Positions 15,164 to 27,561 of a stretch of DNA of 30,769 bases are shown piece after piece; position 1 is the first letter of the stretch, and each line of letters opens with the position of its first letter. Made by a program: the position numbers and the translations under genes. The notes under the pieces were generated by a model. The model saw nothing but the letters and a program-made list of their open reading frames with translations, was not told where the DNA came from and searched no databases. This stretch comes from a virus, in the IMG/VR virus record IMGVR_UViG_3300030101_000721, positions 1 through 30,769 of that record, one strand, 5' to 3'.

Positions 15164-15194
15164 ATTTTTCCTTTTCCTTTTATGTTTCCTTTTT

Positions 15195-15245
15195 TAAGTG
15201 GAGCTGCTTTGACTAGCCTAGGATGAGAAAGCAATACCCCACTTA
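15195..15245 (-). other. Stem-loop in the late transcript leader
   Basis: Two nested inverted repeats: TAAGTGG (15195-15201) with CCACTTA (15239-15245), and inside it TGCTTT (15205-15210) with AAAGCA (15228-15233). The loop contains the palindrome CCTAGG. Transcribed leftward from the promoter at 15299-15327, it would fold in the 5' leader about 30 bases before the ribosome-binding site of the 99-residue gene. It has no T-run, so it is not a simple terminator. I do not recognise a known riboswitch class. Confidence 0.5.
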
Positions 15246-15290
15246 TAAACTAAATAACTAACTCAATATAGTTATAACCTAGAGAAAGTT

Positions 15291-15305
15291 ATGTGAACAT
15301 TATAA
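15291..15305. repeat. Putative operator, copy 2 of the shared 15-base sequence
   Basis: ATGTGAACATTATAA, one base different from 18026-18040. It covers the -10 box of the late promoter on the minus strand. The weak outer symmetry TTAT...ATAA (15289-15305) would allow binding of a dimer. The role is inferred from position. Confidence 0.5.
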
Positions 15306-15327
15306 TTGATTTGTAAAATAATTGCAA
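15299..15327 (-). promoter_or_regulatory. Sigma70-type promoter for the late operon
   Basis: On the minus strand TTGCAA (15327-15322), a 17-base spacer, then TATAAT (15304-15299). The -10 is a perfect match and the -35 matches at four of six bases. Transcription would start near 15292 and run left into the SSB-tip, methylase, terminase and structural genes. The -10 overlaps a 15-base sequence (15291-15305) repeated in the divergent region at 18026-18040, so the promoter may be under the same control protein. The phage has no recognisable RNA polymerase, so host polymerase use is expected. Confidence 0.68.
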
Positions 15328-15342
15328 AAAAATTGTGAGTAT

Positions 15343-15373
15343 CCCCCCCATATAGTATGACGCGAGGGGGGGG
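15343..15373. repeat. C7/G8 inverted repeat
   Basis: A run of seven C (15343-15349) and a run of eight G (15366-15373) flank 16 AT-rich bases, forming a possible 7-bp all-GC hairpin. In such an AT-rich genome this is the most GC-dense spot. It lies just upstream of the late promoter. It could be a replication- or packaging-related structure or a transcription block; the sequence does not decide. Confidence 0.5.
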
Positions 15374-15444
15374 AAAGGTGTGTCTTTTCTGCAACACTCG
15401 GCCTTTTTTATTTTCTGTAGGAGGACTGCCCTTTCTGGGCCACA

Positions 15445-15480
15445 TTTATAAAATGTAAATGTTCGTTTACGATTTATAAA
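15445..15480. repeat. 36-base dyad next to the replication gene
   Basis: The arrangement is TTTATAAA-N2-GTAAA-N6-TTTAC-N2-TTTATAAA. Each arm holds an 8-base palindrome and a 5-base half-site in mirrored positions, so 26 of 36 positions pair and the mismatches fall only in the two N2 pairs and the N6 centre. It ends one base before the stop codon of the winged-helix gene. Length and symmetry suit a dimeric DNA-binding protein, an origin element or a serine recombinase crossover site. Confidence 0.6.
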
Positions 15481-16326
15481 TTACCTGGGCATCTTCATCT
15501 TCCTGGATATTTTCTTTACCATATCCTGGACCAGTTCCTTATTATTATTAAGCTTGTCTTTCTTGATGAATACATCCTTATAAAAAACCAACCTCTTAGG
15601 ACAATCCTTTCTGTTGGTCCTTCTCCATACAAGTATCTCCTTAAGTCTAGCAGCAGCTCTAGCCTCGGTAAGTCCTTCCTTTACCCATTCAGTTACCATC
15701 TTCTCATCTTCTGTAGTGTACTGAACCAATACTCCGAAAATCTCTTCGGTTAATCTTACAAACCTATTACATATAGATCTCACTATAGGGTATATATGAT
15801 TGTTAGTTAGGTTGTTATGCATGTACTCTGACTGCATATCTGGATATGTATTGGGAACCATATTAGAACTATTCTTATCTACTGACTTATGTACTCTAGG
15901 TGCATAATTCTTTTTACCCCCACCTTTAGGACCTATGTGTATTTCTGGTTTATCTTCATAGGATCTGTCCTTATCTGGTACCATAGCTAAAGCATCCTCT
16001 TCCTTAATCTTAGGATCAAACACCATAAAGTATTTGTTACCTTTGAGGCCAGGATGTTTCTTAGCATAGCGAATATAATCCCACTCAATAAGTTTCTTAA
16101 TATGTCTTGAAACAGTTGATTGGGTTATGTGCAAGTTCCTGGCTATAGTTAATTGGTTCGGCCAACAGACACCTTGCCTGGATGTGTAGTTACCAAGTGC
16201 TGCAAGGATCATGAAGGTTCTTGGATAAGTCTTGAACCTTTTATCTATTACAGCTCTTTGAGGCAGTACACAAAAGTGGCCAGGTGTTCTGCCTTTACCA
16301 TAATCAGCTTTCTTTTTATCACTCAT
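15481..16326 (-). CDS. Winged-helix replication protein (phage O-like)
   Basis: 281 residues. HFCVLPQRAVIDKRFKTYPR and TFMILAALGNYTSRQGVCWP open into a helix-turn-helix NQLTIARNLHITQSTVSRHI followed by KKLIEWDYIRYAKKHPG, about residues 17-95. This is the N-terminal winged helix of phage replication initiators (lambda O-type/replisome organiser) that bind origin repeats. A polar linker follows, then a helical C-terminal half (IVRSICNRFVRLTEEIFGVL, MVTEWVKEGLTEARAAARLK) that could contact a helicase or its loader. It overlaps the MT-A70 gene by ATGA. A transcription regulator role is the alternative. Confidence 0.75.
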   Translation of the reverse strand: MSDKKKADYGKGRTPGHFCVLPQRAVIDKRFKTYPRTFMILAALGNYTSRQGVCWPNQLTIARNLHITQSTVSRHIKKLIEWDYIRYAKKHPGLKGNKYFMVFDPKIKEEDALAMVPDKDRSYEDKPEIHIGPKGGGKKNYAPRVHKSVDKNSSNMVPNTYPDMQSEYMHNNLTNNHIYPIVRSICNRFVRLTEEIFGVLVQYTTEDEKMVTEWVKEGLTEARAAARLKEILVWRRTNRKDCPKRLVFYKDVFIKKDKLNNNKELVQDMVKKISRKMKMPR

Positions 16327-16862
16327 ATTTCGTTACCCCAAACATCCCAGCCTGGAGTTTTTTGTCTTGCAAATAATTCTATTCTTGGAAGATCACCACA
16401 AAGCTCAACAATTCTATCTCTAACACAATCTGGTTTTCTTGAATGTTCTCTTAAATTATCAATAACAAGTTGTTTTACTTTTTTAGAATGTCTTTTAAAT
16501 TTACCTTTTCTACCTATCAAACAAATTTCACAATTTGAATTAGTGTAAAAACCTAAACCAGAATAAAAAGATCCTTTCTTATTTGTTTTTACCCATGTGA
16601 AAGCTACAGTTTTATAAACAAACTGCCATGATTTTAAAACCTCTATTCCTTCAATTAAATTAGGATAAGTAACCCAAAGAAACAAAATACAATTATCATC
16701 AGATATTTGATTTATAGGTAATTGTTTTATTTGATTTAAAGATAAAGTTTTATAATGAGCTGATACATCACCATGAGATTTACCTTTACCTTGAAAATTA
16801 TTATAAGTCCAAGGTGGATCAGCATAAATAATCTGATACTTTTTATTTGGTAGATTATTCAT
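16323..16862 (-). CDS. MT-A70-family adenine methyltransferase
   Basis: 179 residues. YQIIYADPPWTYNNF (9-23) contains the catalytic Asp-Pro-Pro-Trp (15-18) of the MT-A70 family. CILFLWVTYPNLIEG, VYKTVAFTWVKTNKKG, FYTNSNCEICLIGRKGK and REHSRKPDCVRDRIVELCGD follow in the normal order, ending with PRIELFARQKTPGWDVWGNE, the family's C-terminal signature. It transfers methyl from S-adenosylmethionine to adenine N6 in DNA. All motifs are present, so it should be active. It may protect the phage from host restriction or mark the origin. It overlaps the DnaA-like gene by 8 bases. Confidence 0.9.
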   Translation of the reverse strand: MNNLPNKKYQIIYADPPWTYNNFQGKGKSHGDVSAHYKTLSLNQIKQLPINQISDDNCILFLWVTYPNLIEGIEVLKSWQFVYKTVAFTWVKTNKKGSFYSGLGFYTNSNCEICLIGRKGKFKRHSKKVKQLVIDNLREHSRKPDCVRDRIVELCGDLPRIELFARQKTPGWDVWGNEI

Positions 16863-17391
16863 TATCTGGTTGGGCCTCTGACTTTAGCTTTGCCTCTAGC
16901 TTAGCAAAATCAGACCACAATTCTATTCCACTTTCTTTTTTAATACTCCAGCAATTCTTTTTATCTCTCTTCAATCTTACATGGTGAATGACAGTTGTAT
17001 GATCTCTGTTACCACATGCTCGGCCAATCGCTGGTTGAGATGAATGAGTAAGCTCGTTGCATAAGTTGATATATACAGATCTAACTCTTACAAGATCAGC
17101 ATGTCTTTTATCAGACTTAATATCAGTAGGACCTACCTCAAAGTAATCGCAGACAGCCTCAAGTATATCAGAGATCCATACTCTCTTAGCTCTCTCTTCT
17201 GGTTTAGGTCTATACTTATCTCTTCTCTTCAATACTCGGAGCTCATCCATTAACTTATCTATCTTGCTCTCCAGGTAGTCTATTCTTTTTTTAATACCAT
17301 CATCTTTAGATTGGACAATAGGTACAGATCTTTGTTGTACATATTCAAAACCAGGTGGTGGTTTGATTACATTATTTGGTATCTTTGTCAT
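16855..17391 (-). CDS. DnaA domain IV-like protein without the AAA+ domain
   Basis: 178 residues. A Pro-rich start (PNNVIKPPPGFEYVQQR) is followed by a coiled coil (IKKRIDYLESKIDKLMDELR, about 33-52) and then a DnaA-type DNA-binding domain: ISDILEAVCDYFEVGPTDIK, ADLVRVRSVYINLCNELT and the signature IGRACGNRDHTTVIHHVRLK (122-141), which matches the DnaA G-x-R-D-H-T-T-V motif. The ATPase domain III is absent. It probably dimerises through the coiled coil and binds DnaA-box-like sites in the phage origin or competes with host DnaA. It overlaps the DUF3310-like gene by 20 bases. Confidence 0.85.
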   Translation of the reverse strand: MTKIPNNVIKPPPGFEYVQQRSVPIVQSKDDGIKKRIDYLESKIDKLMDELRVLKRRDKYRPKPEERAKRVWISDILEAVCDYFEVGPTDIKSDKRHADLVRVRSVYINLCNELTHSSQPAIGRACGNRDHTTVIHHVRLKRDKKNCWSIKKESGIELWSDFAKLEAKLKSEAQPDNE

Positions 17392-18073: not shown

Positions 18074-18478
18074 ATGAGTAATGTTTTTATAAAGAGTGAT
18101 GGTGGTTACGCACAATCTGGTTTTCAATTAAGAAAAAAAATAGGTAATTGTGTACCAAGAGCTATCGCACATGCACTTAATAAACCATACAAAGATGTTT
18201 GGAATGATTTGTTTGATCTTGGAAAAGCAAATGGATTATTTCCAAACCAAGAGAGTTTATACGAAATGTATATCAAGCAGCATGGTTGGAAAAAAATGAA
18301 ACCACAAAGAACTCCAGGTGGTAGGTTAAGAAAGTTAAAATACTTTCAATGCAAAAACATGACAGCTTTAGTTAGAACAAGAAAGCATCTTGTTTGTGTC
18401 AAGGATGGAAAGATCTTAGACACATGGAATAGTGGTAGGTATGCAGCTTGTTCTTATTACATAAAGGAGGACCAATAA
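18074..18478 (+). CDS. C39-like cysteine peptidase fold protein
   Basis: 134 residues. KKIGNCVPRAIAHALNKPYK (21-40) places a cysteine (C26) at the start of a helix; the middle has YEMYIKQHGWKKMKPQRTPG; and TRKHLVCVKDGKILDTW (102-118) supplies H105 and D117. This Cys-His-Asp order and the G-x-C-V-x-R-A-x-A pattern are typical of a papain/C39-like family that many phages carry, without a known target. It is the first gene of the rightward unit, behind GAGAGG. It has no signal peptide, so it acts in the cytoplasm, perhaps on a host or phage protein. Confidence 0.72.
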   Translation: MSNVFIKSDGGYAQSGFQLRKKIGNCVPRAIAHALNKPYKDVWNDLFDLGKANGLFPNQESLYEMYIKQHGWKKMKPQRTPGGRLRKLKYFQCKNMTALVRTRKHLVCVKDGKILDTWNSGRYAACSYYIKEDQ

Positions 18479-19128
18479 TGAATAAGATAGTAGCACTTGT
18501 AAGAGTAAGTACAGACAAGCAAGATGTAAACAATCAAAAGTTTGCAATAGAAAAGAAATATCCTGGATATGATATTGCCTGGTTTGAGGAGCCAGGCATA
18601 TCTGGTGCAAAGAAATTTAGAAATAGACCAGAGCTCCAGGCTGCAATCAGACTAGCTAAAAAATCTGATTGTCCTCTTGTTGTATATTCTTTAAGTAGAT
18701 TAGGAAGGACCTACGAGGTTGGACAATTCCTAGAAGATAACAAAGGTAAAATTAAATTAGATGTTTTAGATACACCTAACCTGGATGATGCAATAGCTGG
18801 GTTTCATGTAGCTATAAATAGAATGGAAAGAATTAATATCTCAAACAGAACAAAGGCAGCTTTACAAAGATTGAAGGCAGAGGGTAAGCAGCTAGGTAAT
18901 CAAACTAATTTAAATGTAGTTAGACTTAGAGGCCATGCAACAATCAAAGCTAATGCTGATAAGTATGCAAAAGATATTTACGATATTATTCAAGGCATCA
19001 AACTATCTGGAGTACATACACTCCAAGGTATTGCTGATGCACTTAATAATAGAGGGGTTAAAACTTTTAAGGACAGAGTTTGGTATCCTTCTACAATTAA
19101 AAATGTCCTGGAAAGAGTAGGTATATAA
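18478..19128 (+). CDS. Small serine recombinase (resolvase/invertase family)
   Basis: 216 residues from ATG 18478 (TAATG overlap, AAAGGAGGACC upstream); an upstream in-frame ATG at 18448 lies inside the previous gene. The N-terminal catalytic domain has ALVRVSTDKQD with nucleophile S11 and R9, then YSLSRLGRT (R74, R77) and ERINISNRTKAAL near 117-129. After the long helix, the C-terminal 40 residues (TLQGIADALNNRGVKTFKDR, VWYPSTIKNVLERV) form a minimal recombinase DNA-binding domain. All catalytic residues that I can place are present. It could integrate, invert or resolve the phage genome; no attachment site was identified. Confidence 0.9.
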   Translation: MNKIVALVRVSTDKQDVNNQKFAIEKKYPGYDIAWFEEPGISGAKKFRNRPELQAAIRLAKKSDCPLVVYSLSRLGRTYEVGQFLEDNKGKIKLDVLDTPNLDDAIAGFHVAINRMERINISNRTKAALQRLKAEGKQLGNQTNLNVVRLRGHATIKANADKYAKDIYDIIQGIKLSGVHTLQGIADALNNRGVKTFKDRVWYPSTIKNVLERVGI

Positions 19129-26259: not shown

Positions 26260-27561
26260 CTATAATATCTCCAATGTTCCATTACCATCTATAGTCAATA
26301 CTACACTACTAGGAATAGTAATAGGACCAAATAAAACACTATTTTTTGTAGATGCTGTTGTTATCGTTGCATTGGTTGATATGCTATTATAGTTTGAAAA
26401 TACTGATCCCACAGTAGTAATCTCACTAGCTTGGATAGTAGTAAAGGATATATTTCCACCACCATCTGTGGTAAGGGCCTGGCCACTCGTACCATCTGCT
26501 GTTGGAAAACTTAAGCCATCTAGTATTACTTTACCAGATCCATTAGGAGTAATAGCGATATTTCCATTTGAGGCAGAAACAATACTATTGCCATTAACAT
26601 CTAAATTACCTCCAAGTTGAGGAGTAACATCTCCAACAATATCTGTAAGTCCTGCTTGTATAGATGACCAAGATGTTCCATTATAAAATTTTACTGCATT
26701 ATCAGTAGAATTATAAAATAAATCTCCCTCGTCTAAACTTGTTGTTGGATCACTTGATCCCACTCTATATCTTTCAGCAAAACTATTAACACCAGTTACA
26801 TTATTAGCAACAGTTGTAACATTTGCTTTTATACCTTCAATAGCATTTAAGTCAGAAACAAAATCACTTGTTGCTAGTTGATTAAGATCACTAACTATAT
26901 CTGATGTAGCTAAAATATTTAGATCTTCTACTATTGCAGATGTAGCTAATGTGTTTAGATCAGATACAAAATCAGATGTAATTAAACTTGAAACTCCAGC
27001 AACAGAATTAATATTACTTATGTTTGCAGCTATAGTTGAAATATCAGTCGTTGTTGGTCCAAGCTCTAATGATGTACCAGAACTATCGTAAGCAATAACT
27101 TTACTTGCATTGTTTGATGGTGTTGCATCATAAGGCCATTGTAAAGGACCAGAGGTACCAGATCCAGTTACAGTTCTTGGAGTAGTAACTTTTAATTGTA
27201 TAGATCTGTCTGTAATCTCTTTTAGTTGTTGTTGTCTAATTAATACATTGTCAAATTCTGTTTCTAATGTAGCTGGATTGTTTGCTTGTCCAGTTTGAAA
27301 TACAGTAGTTCTTGATAATGGTTGATCACCAATAATAGTAATTATTTCACCAGCTGTAGTTGCTGATCCAAAGGTTACAGTTCCAGTACCATCACCATTT
27401 AAAGATACACTATAATGTGTTGTTTCTGTTTTTAAAACATCATTGATATATACCTGGAGCTCAGATGATGCGTTTACTTGAAAACTAAAATTAAACGCAG
27501 TCTGTCCAGTAGATGTATATTGTATCCTTCTATCTACAGCATTTACATTAAAACTTGCCAT
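26260..27561 (-). CDS. Tail fibre protein, T7 gp17-like N-terminus
   Basis: 433 residues. The first 130 residues (RRIQYTSTGQTAFNFSFQVN, LQVYINDVLKTETTHYSVSL, RTTVFQTGQANNPATLETEF, DNVLIRQQQLKEITDRSIQL) are the T7 tail-fibre N-terminal domain that binds the tail. A linker follows, then four 12-residue repeats (196-243), a segment RVGSSDPTTSLDEGDLFYNS that is frequent in marine fibre proteins, and a beta-rich end. It recognises the host surface together with the next gene. The C-terminal part is the expected fast-changing region. Confidence 0.88.
   Translation of the reverse strand: MASFNVNAVDRRIQYTSTGQTAFNFSFQVNASSELQVYINDVLKTETTHYSVSLNGDGTGTVTFGSATTAGEIITIIGDQPLSRTTVFQTGQANNPATLETEFDNVLIRQQQLKEITDRSIQLKVTTPRTVTGSGTSGPLQWPYDATPSNNASKVIAYDSSGTSLELGPTTTDISTIAANISNINSVAGVSSLITSDFVSDLNTLATSAIVEDLNILATSDIVSDLNQLATSDFVSDLNAIEGIKANVTTVANNVTGVNSFAERYRVGSSDPTTSLDEGDLFYNSTDNAVKFYNGTSWSSIQAGLTDIVGDVTPQLGGNLDVNGNSIVSASNGNIAITPNGSGKVILDGLSFPTADGTSGQALTTDGGGNISFTTIQASEITTVGSVFSNYNSISTNATITTASTKNSVLFGPITIPSSVVLTIDGNGTLEIL
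26833..26976 (-). repeat. Four tandem 36-base repeats in the tail fibre gene
   Basis: Residues 196-243 of the fibre read SDFVSDLNTLAT, SAIVEDLNILAT, SDIVSDLNQLAT and SDFVSDLNAIEG. The period of 12 residues is kept with only a few changes, and the DNA repeats are correspondingly similar. The unit has hydrophobic residues spaced as in a trimeric coiled coil. Copy number could vary by recombination, which would change shaft length. Confidence 0.8.

Follow-up and report, generated by a model that had tools for sequence, protein, structure and literature searches.

The dyad at the end of the replication gene

The window, the whole 30,769-nt stretch of viral DNA analyzed here (IMG/VR record IMGVR_UViG_3300030101_000721), carries at 15445–15480 a 36-bp dyad, TTTATAAAATGTAAATGTTCGTTTACGATTTATAAA, that directly abuts the stop codon (15481–15483, minus strand) of a winged-helix gene, 15481–16326. 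A check against the window sequence confirmed the exact letters, the coordinates and the abutment that the first-pass annotation had given. The gene product is a winged-helix replication initiator, Rep, of O-like or DnaD_N-like type (phrog_391, replication initiation O-like, E 6e-10; HTH_36). The dyad is composed of two 17-bp half-sites, 15445–15461 and 15464–15480, and a central dinucleotide at 15462–15463, which reads TT on the plus strand and AA on the rep strand. Beside the rep gene, a minus-strand gene at 16855–17391 encodes a DnaA domain IV (Bac_DnaA_C, E 3e-22) without the AAA+ part. Two tandem repeats were also recorded in the window: a 24-bp repeat in 2.1 copies at 16704–16753, within the gene 16323–16862, and a period-36 repeat in 3.6 copies at 26852–26980 (minus strand), within a tail-fibre-like gene (26260–27561). 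On the other side of the dyad, a variable non-coding cassette (15374–15444) starts at the dyad edge, and an inverted repeat of a C run and a G run (15343–15373; C7-N16-G8 on the plus strand) forms its far border. A sigma-70-like promoter, TTGCAA-17-TATAAT (15299–15327, minus strand), which is a consensus match only (10 of 12 positions), precedes the late operon. A small serine recombinase of 216 residues is encoded at 18478–19128 on the plus strand.

The dyad had been singled out as the foremost symmetric element of the window and is indeed its best-scoring even-centred palindrome; yet an equal or better palindrome arises in 37% of dinucleotide shuffles of the whole window. When the shuffles are restricted to a 322-bp stretch around the intergenic region, the figure is 0.6%, and the dyad, with 16-nt arms that are 88% complementary, is the sole inverted repeat reported in 15164–16326. 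Symmetry by itself is thus weak evidence. Chance origin is ruled out by conservation: the dyad is real because dozens of independent contigs carry it at the corresponding position.

The location between the rep gene and the late promoter, together with a predicted RNA fold of −7.7 to −9.4 kcal/mol, would suit an operator of the late operon or an RNA hairpin that controls this operon or ends the rep transcript. Such a role is highly improbable: the stem is AT-rich and lacks a U tract, no terminator was called, the dyad is ~120 bp upstream of the promoter −35, the ribbon-helix-helix (RHH) protein is missing from dyad-bearing genomes, and the loop-proximal positions are conserved in sequence, beyond what pairing alone would require. 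A more general RNA element was rejected, with no relevant Rfam match and no terminator.

Conservation and anatomy of the site

With the adjoining Rep as the query, 92 IMG/VR relatives were confirmed, of which 80 were kept. In nearly all relatives with enough sequence, about 75 loci whose Rep proteins are 41–94% identical to that of the window, the dyad is found no more than a few bases from the rep stop codon, and the non-coding DNA past the dyad gives no alignment between clades. The consensus on the rep strand is TTTATAAAnnGTAAACG-AA-CCTTTACnnTTTATAAA. The first-pass annotation had made its case depend on conservation of the arms in close relatives, and the arms are conserved. Scored with a weight matrix of the site, the window has a single strong hit (51.5 bits, with a runner-up of 2.9 bits), and 16 of 17 long contigs likewise have one site each; in the remaining contig, G017, a degenerate dyad occupies the corresponding position. 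No second dyad that could support inversion was found in the 16 long contigs, and an inversion role is disfavoured because there is one site per genome. An independent pattern scan of the entire viral collection returned 23 stretches, mostly on contigs already in the set; of four new contigs that were checked, three have a Rep relative beside the site, and the fourth ends there, truncated. Locus L152, considered as a natural experiment because of a Rep identity of 43%, was discarded as an artefact of a truncated contig, the real identity being 54–56%.

The nearest cultured phage by terminase is the OM43 phage MEP301 (Methylophilales phage; 68%), whose Rep is too distant from that of the window for a match by tblastn. 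MEP301 gp55 is an O-like replication protein as well, and the sequence CTAAACG-TC-CCTTTAG (34045–34060) overlaps its stop codon. Among 30 IMG/VR relatives of gp55, the dyad centre lies 3–27 bp past the rep stop in nearly all that are readable, with inner half-sites of the AAACG/CGTTT kind. In MEP301 and its kin, an O-like rep gene with the site at its end occurs together with a serine recombinase. Dyads of other sequence are observed in two more distant relatives: at the 3′ end of rep (+4) in L205, a contig from an alphaproteobacterial MAG, and 46 bp inside the rep reading frame in L208 (Hyphomicrobiales), where the dyad was called on architecture only and is a less certain, probable assignment. 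In L206, no clear dyad occupies the usual position, and the nearest candidate (+40), with a palindromic AT centre, is a doubtful exception to the central asymmetry described below.

Throughout these relatives, the site consists of two 17-bp half-sites flanking a central dinucleotide that is palindromic in none of 50 distinct sites, a count that does not represent 50 independent trials because the sites share ancestry. In the 31 distinct window-type sites, which were gathered by core patterns allowing AA or TT centres only and with which an unselected alignment agrees, the centre is AA in 25 and TT in 6. In the 19 distinct distant sites, which were picked by palindrome score, a choice that favours symmetric centres, it is GT in 8, GA, CC and TT in 3 each, and GG in 2. 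Together, the 50 sites comprise AA (25), TT (9), GT (8), GA (3), CC (3) and GG (2), so that four of the six non-palindromic dinucleotide classes are represented and none of the four palindromic classes. The immediate neighbours of the centre are strongly symmetric: G directly flanks the central pair in 96% of half-sites, 96% of the 50 sites are symmetric at this position, and positions 2 and 4 from the centre are 93–96% one base.

Judged from sequence, an asymmetric centre between strongly symmetric neighbours is the signature expected of a serine-recombinase crossover site. In Bxb1, the strands are cut at an asymmetric central dinucleotide, which is the sole determinant of polarity (PMC3642061). 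Neither a dimer operator nor a replication dyad needs such a dinucleotide. A protelomerase site was rejected because the centre is never palindromic. A XerCD/dif site or another tyrosine-recombinase site was rejected as well, since PF00589 occurs in 1 of 21 contigs and the positions beside the centre are invariable, leaving no variable spacer of 6–8 bp. A resemblance to a tRNA T-loop att core (GGTTCG) was dropped in view of the other centres in the MEP301 clade.

The serine recombinase and the putative reader of the dyad

The recombinase of the window matches PF00239 (E 1e-20) and, over positions 18–50 of 102 only, PF07508. Residues R9, S11, R50, R74 and R77 are invariant in 18–22 aligned homologues, from the window type to the MEP301 type. 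The enzyme is found in 17 of 21 long contigs, the remaining four being partial, and every genome that is long enough encodes a serine recombinase of 214–240 residues with intact catalytic residues. A PDB search with the sequence of the window recombinase gave no match. In the predicted structure (mean pLDDT 83, pTM 0.50), the N-terminal part matches Sin catalytic domains, and the C-terminal part, a long helix followed by two short helices, has no PDB match; the model ends after these three helices, and the zinc ribbon and coiled coil of large serine integrases are missing. The orthologous gene of MEP301, ORF4, occupies the same position and is accompanied by the same site architecture at the rep gene end. 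In the MEP301 report, the functionality of ORF4 was doubted because PF07508 was not found, and the report is not known to describe a recombination site (PMC8024684). Just ahead of the recombinase gene in four type-B genomes (G005, G009, G011 and G015), there is a weak, recurrent half-site-like sequence, TTTATATATCGTAAATATATATTTAG, a possible autoregulatory or accessory site.

Only three proteins are present in all dyad-bearing genomes checked: Rep, the serine recombinase and a YqaJ-type exonuclease. The RHH protein, which had been put forward as a dyad ligand, is missing from dyad-bearing G006, G018–G020 and MEP301, and a DnaA-domain protein from G006, G017 and MEP301; because dyad-bearing genomes exist without them, both are excluded as general ligands. 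The distance between sites correlates with the distance between recombinase C-terminal domains (r 0.80; partial 0.51 given Rep) and, somewhat less well, with that between Rep proteins (r 0.75; partial 0.32). The inner site positions lean toward Rep (partial 0.49, vs 0.32 for the recombinase). The TATAAA/TACAAA state of the outer arm requires one change on the tree of the recombinase C-terminal domain and two on the trees of Rep or of the catalytic domain. In L035 and L040, where the recombinase has a catalytic domain of type B but a C-terminal domain that is type-A-like, the arms are type A. L168 is a counter-example, its site being identical to that of L166 and its recombinase C-terminus different. 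The covariation is suggestive, not decisive, and points to the recombinase C-terminal domain as the putative reader of the arms.

These data also bear on whether the dyad is part of a replication origin bound by the winged-helix Rep, with the variable cassette and the C-run/G-run element belonging to the same origin. The site adjoins rep in every case, in the window as in MEP301 and L208, Rep is encoded in every dyad-bearing genome, and the distance between sites tracks that between Rep proteins too, for the inner part slightly better than it tracks the recombinase. An origin is nevertheless unlikely. Binding of a dimer would leave the never-palindromic central dinucleotide unexplained, the outer arms vary more closely with the recombinase C-terminal domain than with Rep, and O-like initiators would be expected to have iterons, which a lone 36-bp dyad does not resemble; a check for iterons found one weak 18-nt repeat pair, inside the rep gene.

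If the dyad were instead an attP site, the serine recombinase would integrate the phage into the host there. The sites of serine integrases are indeed imperfect inverted repeats in which the central dinucleotide is asymmetric (PMC3642061), and there is one site per genome. However, a search of ~85,000 bacterial and archaeal species genomes yielded no Rep relative, the 216-residue enzyme has no counterpart of the zinc and coiled-coil segment found in large serine integrases, and the one long contig of 21 with a tyrosine integrase (PF00589), G019, carries it besides the serine recombinase and the dyad. A search by terminase alignment identified 16 relatives, among them L208, the sole relative inside a large host contig (186 kb, Hyphomicrobiales), with rep beside terS. 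In this contig (L208/L229/L230), a relative of these marine podoviruses is present at 63.5–98.8 kb as a 35.3-kb prophage. Its ends, 35.3 kb apart, are marked by 16-bp dif-like direct repeats, GTCGCATAAGACATAT, one side continuing as TATTATGG; it encodes its own XerC-like tyrosine recombinase and keeps the serine recombinase and the probable dyad inside. By its sequence, the prophage is probably a Xer/dif-integrating podovirus. Because this relative is integrated elsewhere, at a dif-like site, with the probable dyad in its interior, an attP role is very unlikely.

Of the three readings offered by the first-pass annotation, an origin element, an operator and a crossover site, the last is best supported, by the half-sites, the asymmetric centre, the single site and the presence of the recombinase in every genome that is complete enough. 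The operator found no positive support, the dyad following a stop codon and lying ~120–145 bp upstream of the −35/−10 elements of the next gene. The dyad is thus a candidate, and on the sequence comparisons a probable one, for the crossover site of the small serine recombinase of the phage itself (18478–19128).

Proposed function and relation to known systems

In the proposed mechanism, a recombinase dimer would bind both inverted 17-bp half-sites, TTTATAAAnnGTAAACG, with the short C-terminal domains reading the half-sites and the catalytic domains sitting over the centre. Two dimer-bound sites would then synapse, and cuts on both sides of the central dinucleotide would be followed by rotation and religation. 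The sites should have polarity because the dinucleotide is never palindromic, so that head-to-tail repeated sites would be resolved rather than joined at random. Since each genome has one site, two sites would meet only in joined or redundant genomes, namely, in multimers that replication or recombination has produced or at the two ends of an infecting molecule with terminal redundancy, and the likely job of the system would thus be a return to monomer circles. Multimer resolution or circle closure, by analogy with res/resolvase or P1 lox/Cre and with no host integration, is the likeliest function that we infer.

Crossover at the dyad would provide a target, open to testing, for a recombinase that nearly all members of a widespread and mostly uncultured marine podovirus group encode; MEP301, the only close cultured relative, had a recombinase of doubted function. 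Such a crossover would also suggest that, even in the absence of an integrase, lytic phages retain site-specific recombination as a means to manage the form of the genome. A minimal enzyme (~216 residues) paired with a simple 36-bp site that shows no accessory sites could be useful for the study and application of serine recombinases.

The cassette that starts at the dyad edge is exchanged between near-identical genomes. Among 109 pairs whose flanks are each at least 90% identical, 20 have a cassette identity below 70%, many of these pairs involving the same contigs. For example, L048 and L055 are 99% identical upstream, 53% in the cassette and 100% downstream. Alignments of close relatives stop at the dyad edge, with 32 interior ends between +16 and +27 as counted from the dyad centre, including pairs that are 98–99% identical upstream, and identity returns near the C-run/G-run element. 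One cassette is common to distant clades (L003 and L025), and in L025 the break seems to fall within the right arm; the mosaic breaks as a whole map to the outer edge of the right arm and are not resolvable to the centre. The loss of homology at the dyad edge counts in favour of the crossover site, and its position away from the centre counts against it. The C-run/G-run element is present in all aligned relatives and is kept even where the dyad has changed (L205 and L208). After it, on the rep strand, comes a conserved block, GGGGGG..CTCACAATTTTTTTGCA. No intrinsic terminator was called in the element, for which a terminator, an origin and a packaging element are all candidate roles.

A dyad with a recombinase could be a natural exchange point, at which a crossover during co-infection would join two genomes and later homologous recombination would leave phages that differ only in the cassette (up to ~100 bp). 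This origin of the mosaics is quite doubtful, and the border could also be explained by homologous recombination or selection. If it holds, site-specific recombination would drive the rapid switching of a control or packaging segment in near-identical marine phages.

Similar to the attP sites of large serine integrases such as those of A118 and Bxb1, the putative crossover site is an imperfect inverted repeat with an asymmetric central dinucleotide (PMC3642061), and the window enzyme contains a partial PF07508 domain. The half-site is 17 bp here versus 25 bp in attP (PMC3783163), the enzyme has neither zinc ribbon nor coiled coil in its 216 residues, and the prophage relative is not integrated at the dyad.

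The site also resembles site I of the resolvase res sites (Tn3/γδ and Sin), where inverted half-sites surround a 2-bp crossover recognized by a small serine recombinase. The best fold match of the recombinase model is the Sin catalytic domain, and one site per replicon would suit multimer resolution. A res site I is ~28 bp long, whereas the site described here spans 34–36 bp. In addition, the recombinase gene is 3 kb away, unlike the adjacent genes of most resolvases, the C-terminal part of the enzyme is a partial PF07508-like domain rather than HTH_7, and no further half-site match that could represent accessory site II or III was found near the dyad. The site is accordingly filed neither as a Tn3-type res, the accessory sites not having been found, nor as attP.

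P1 lox is a single-copy inverted-repeat site of the 34–36-bp class with a polar spacer and a presumed role in circle closure and dimer resolution. Its enzyme, Cre, is a tyrosine recombinase that acts across an 8-bp spacer, whereas here the enzyme is of the serine family, and freedom and polarity are confined to the central 2 bp. In both phages, a single-copy inverted-repeat site of 34–36 bp has a polar centre.
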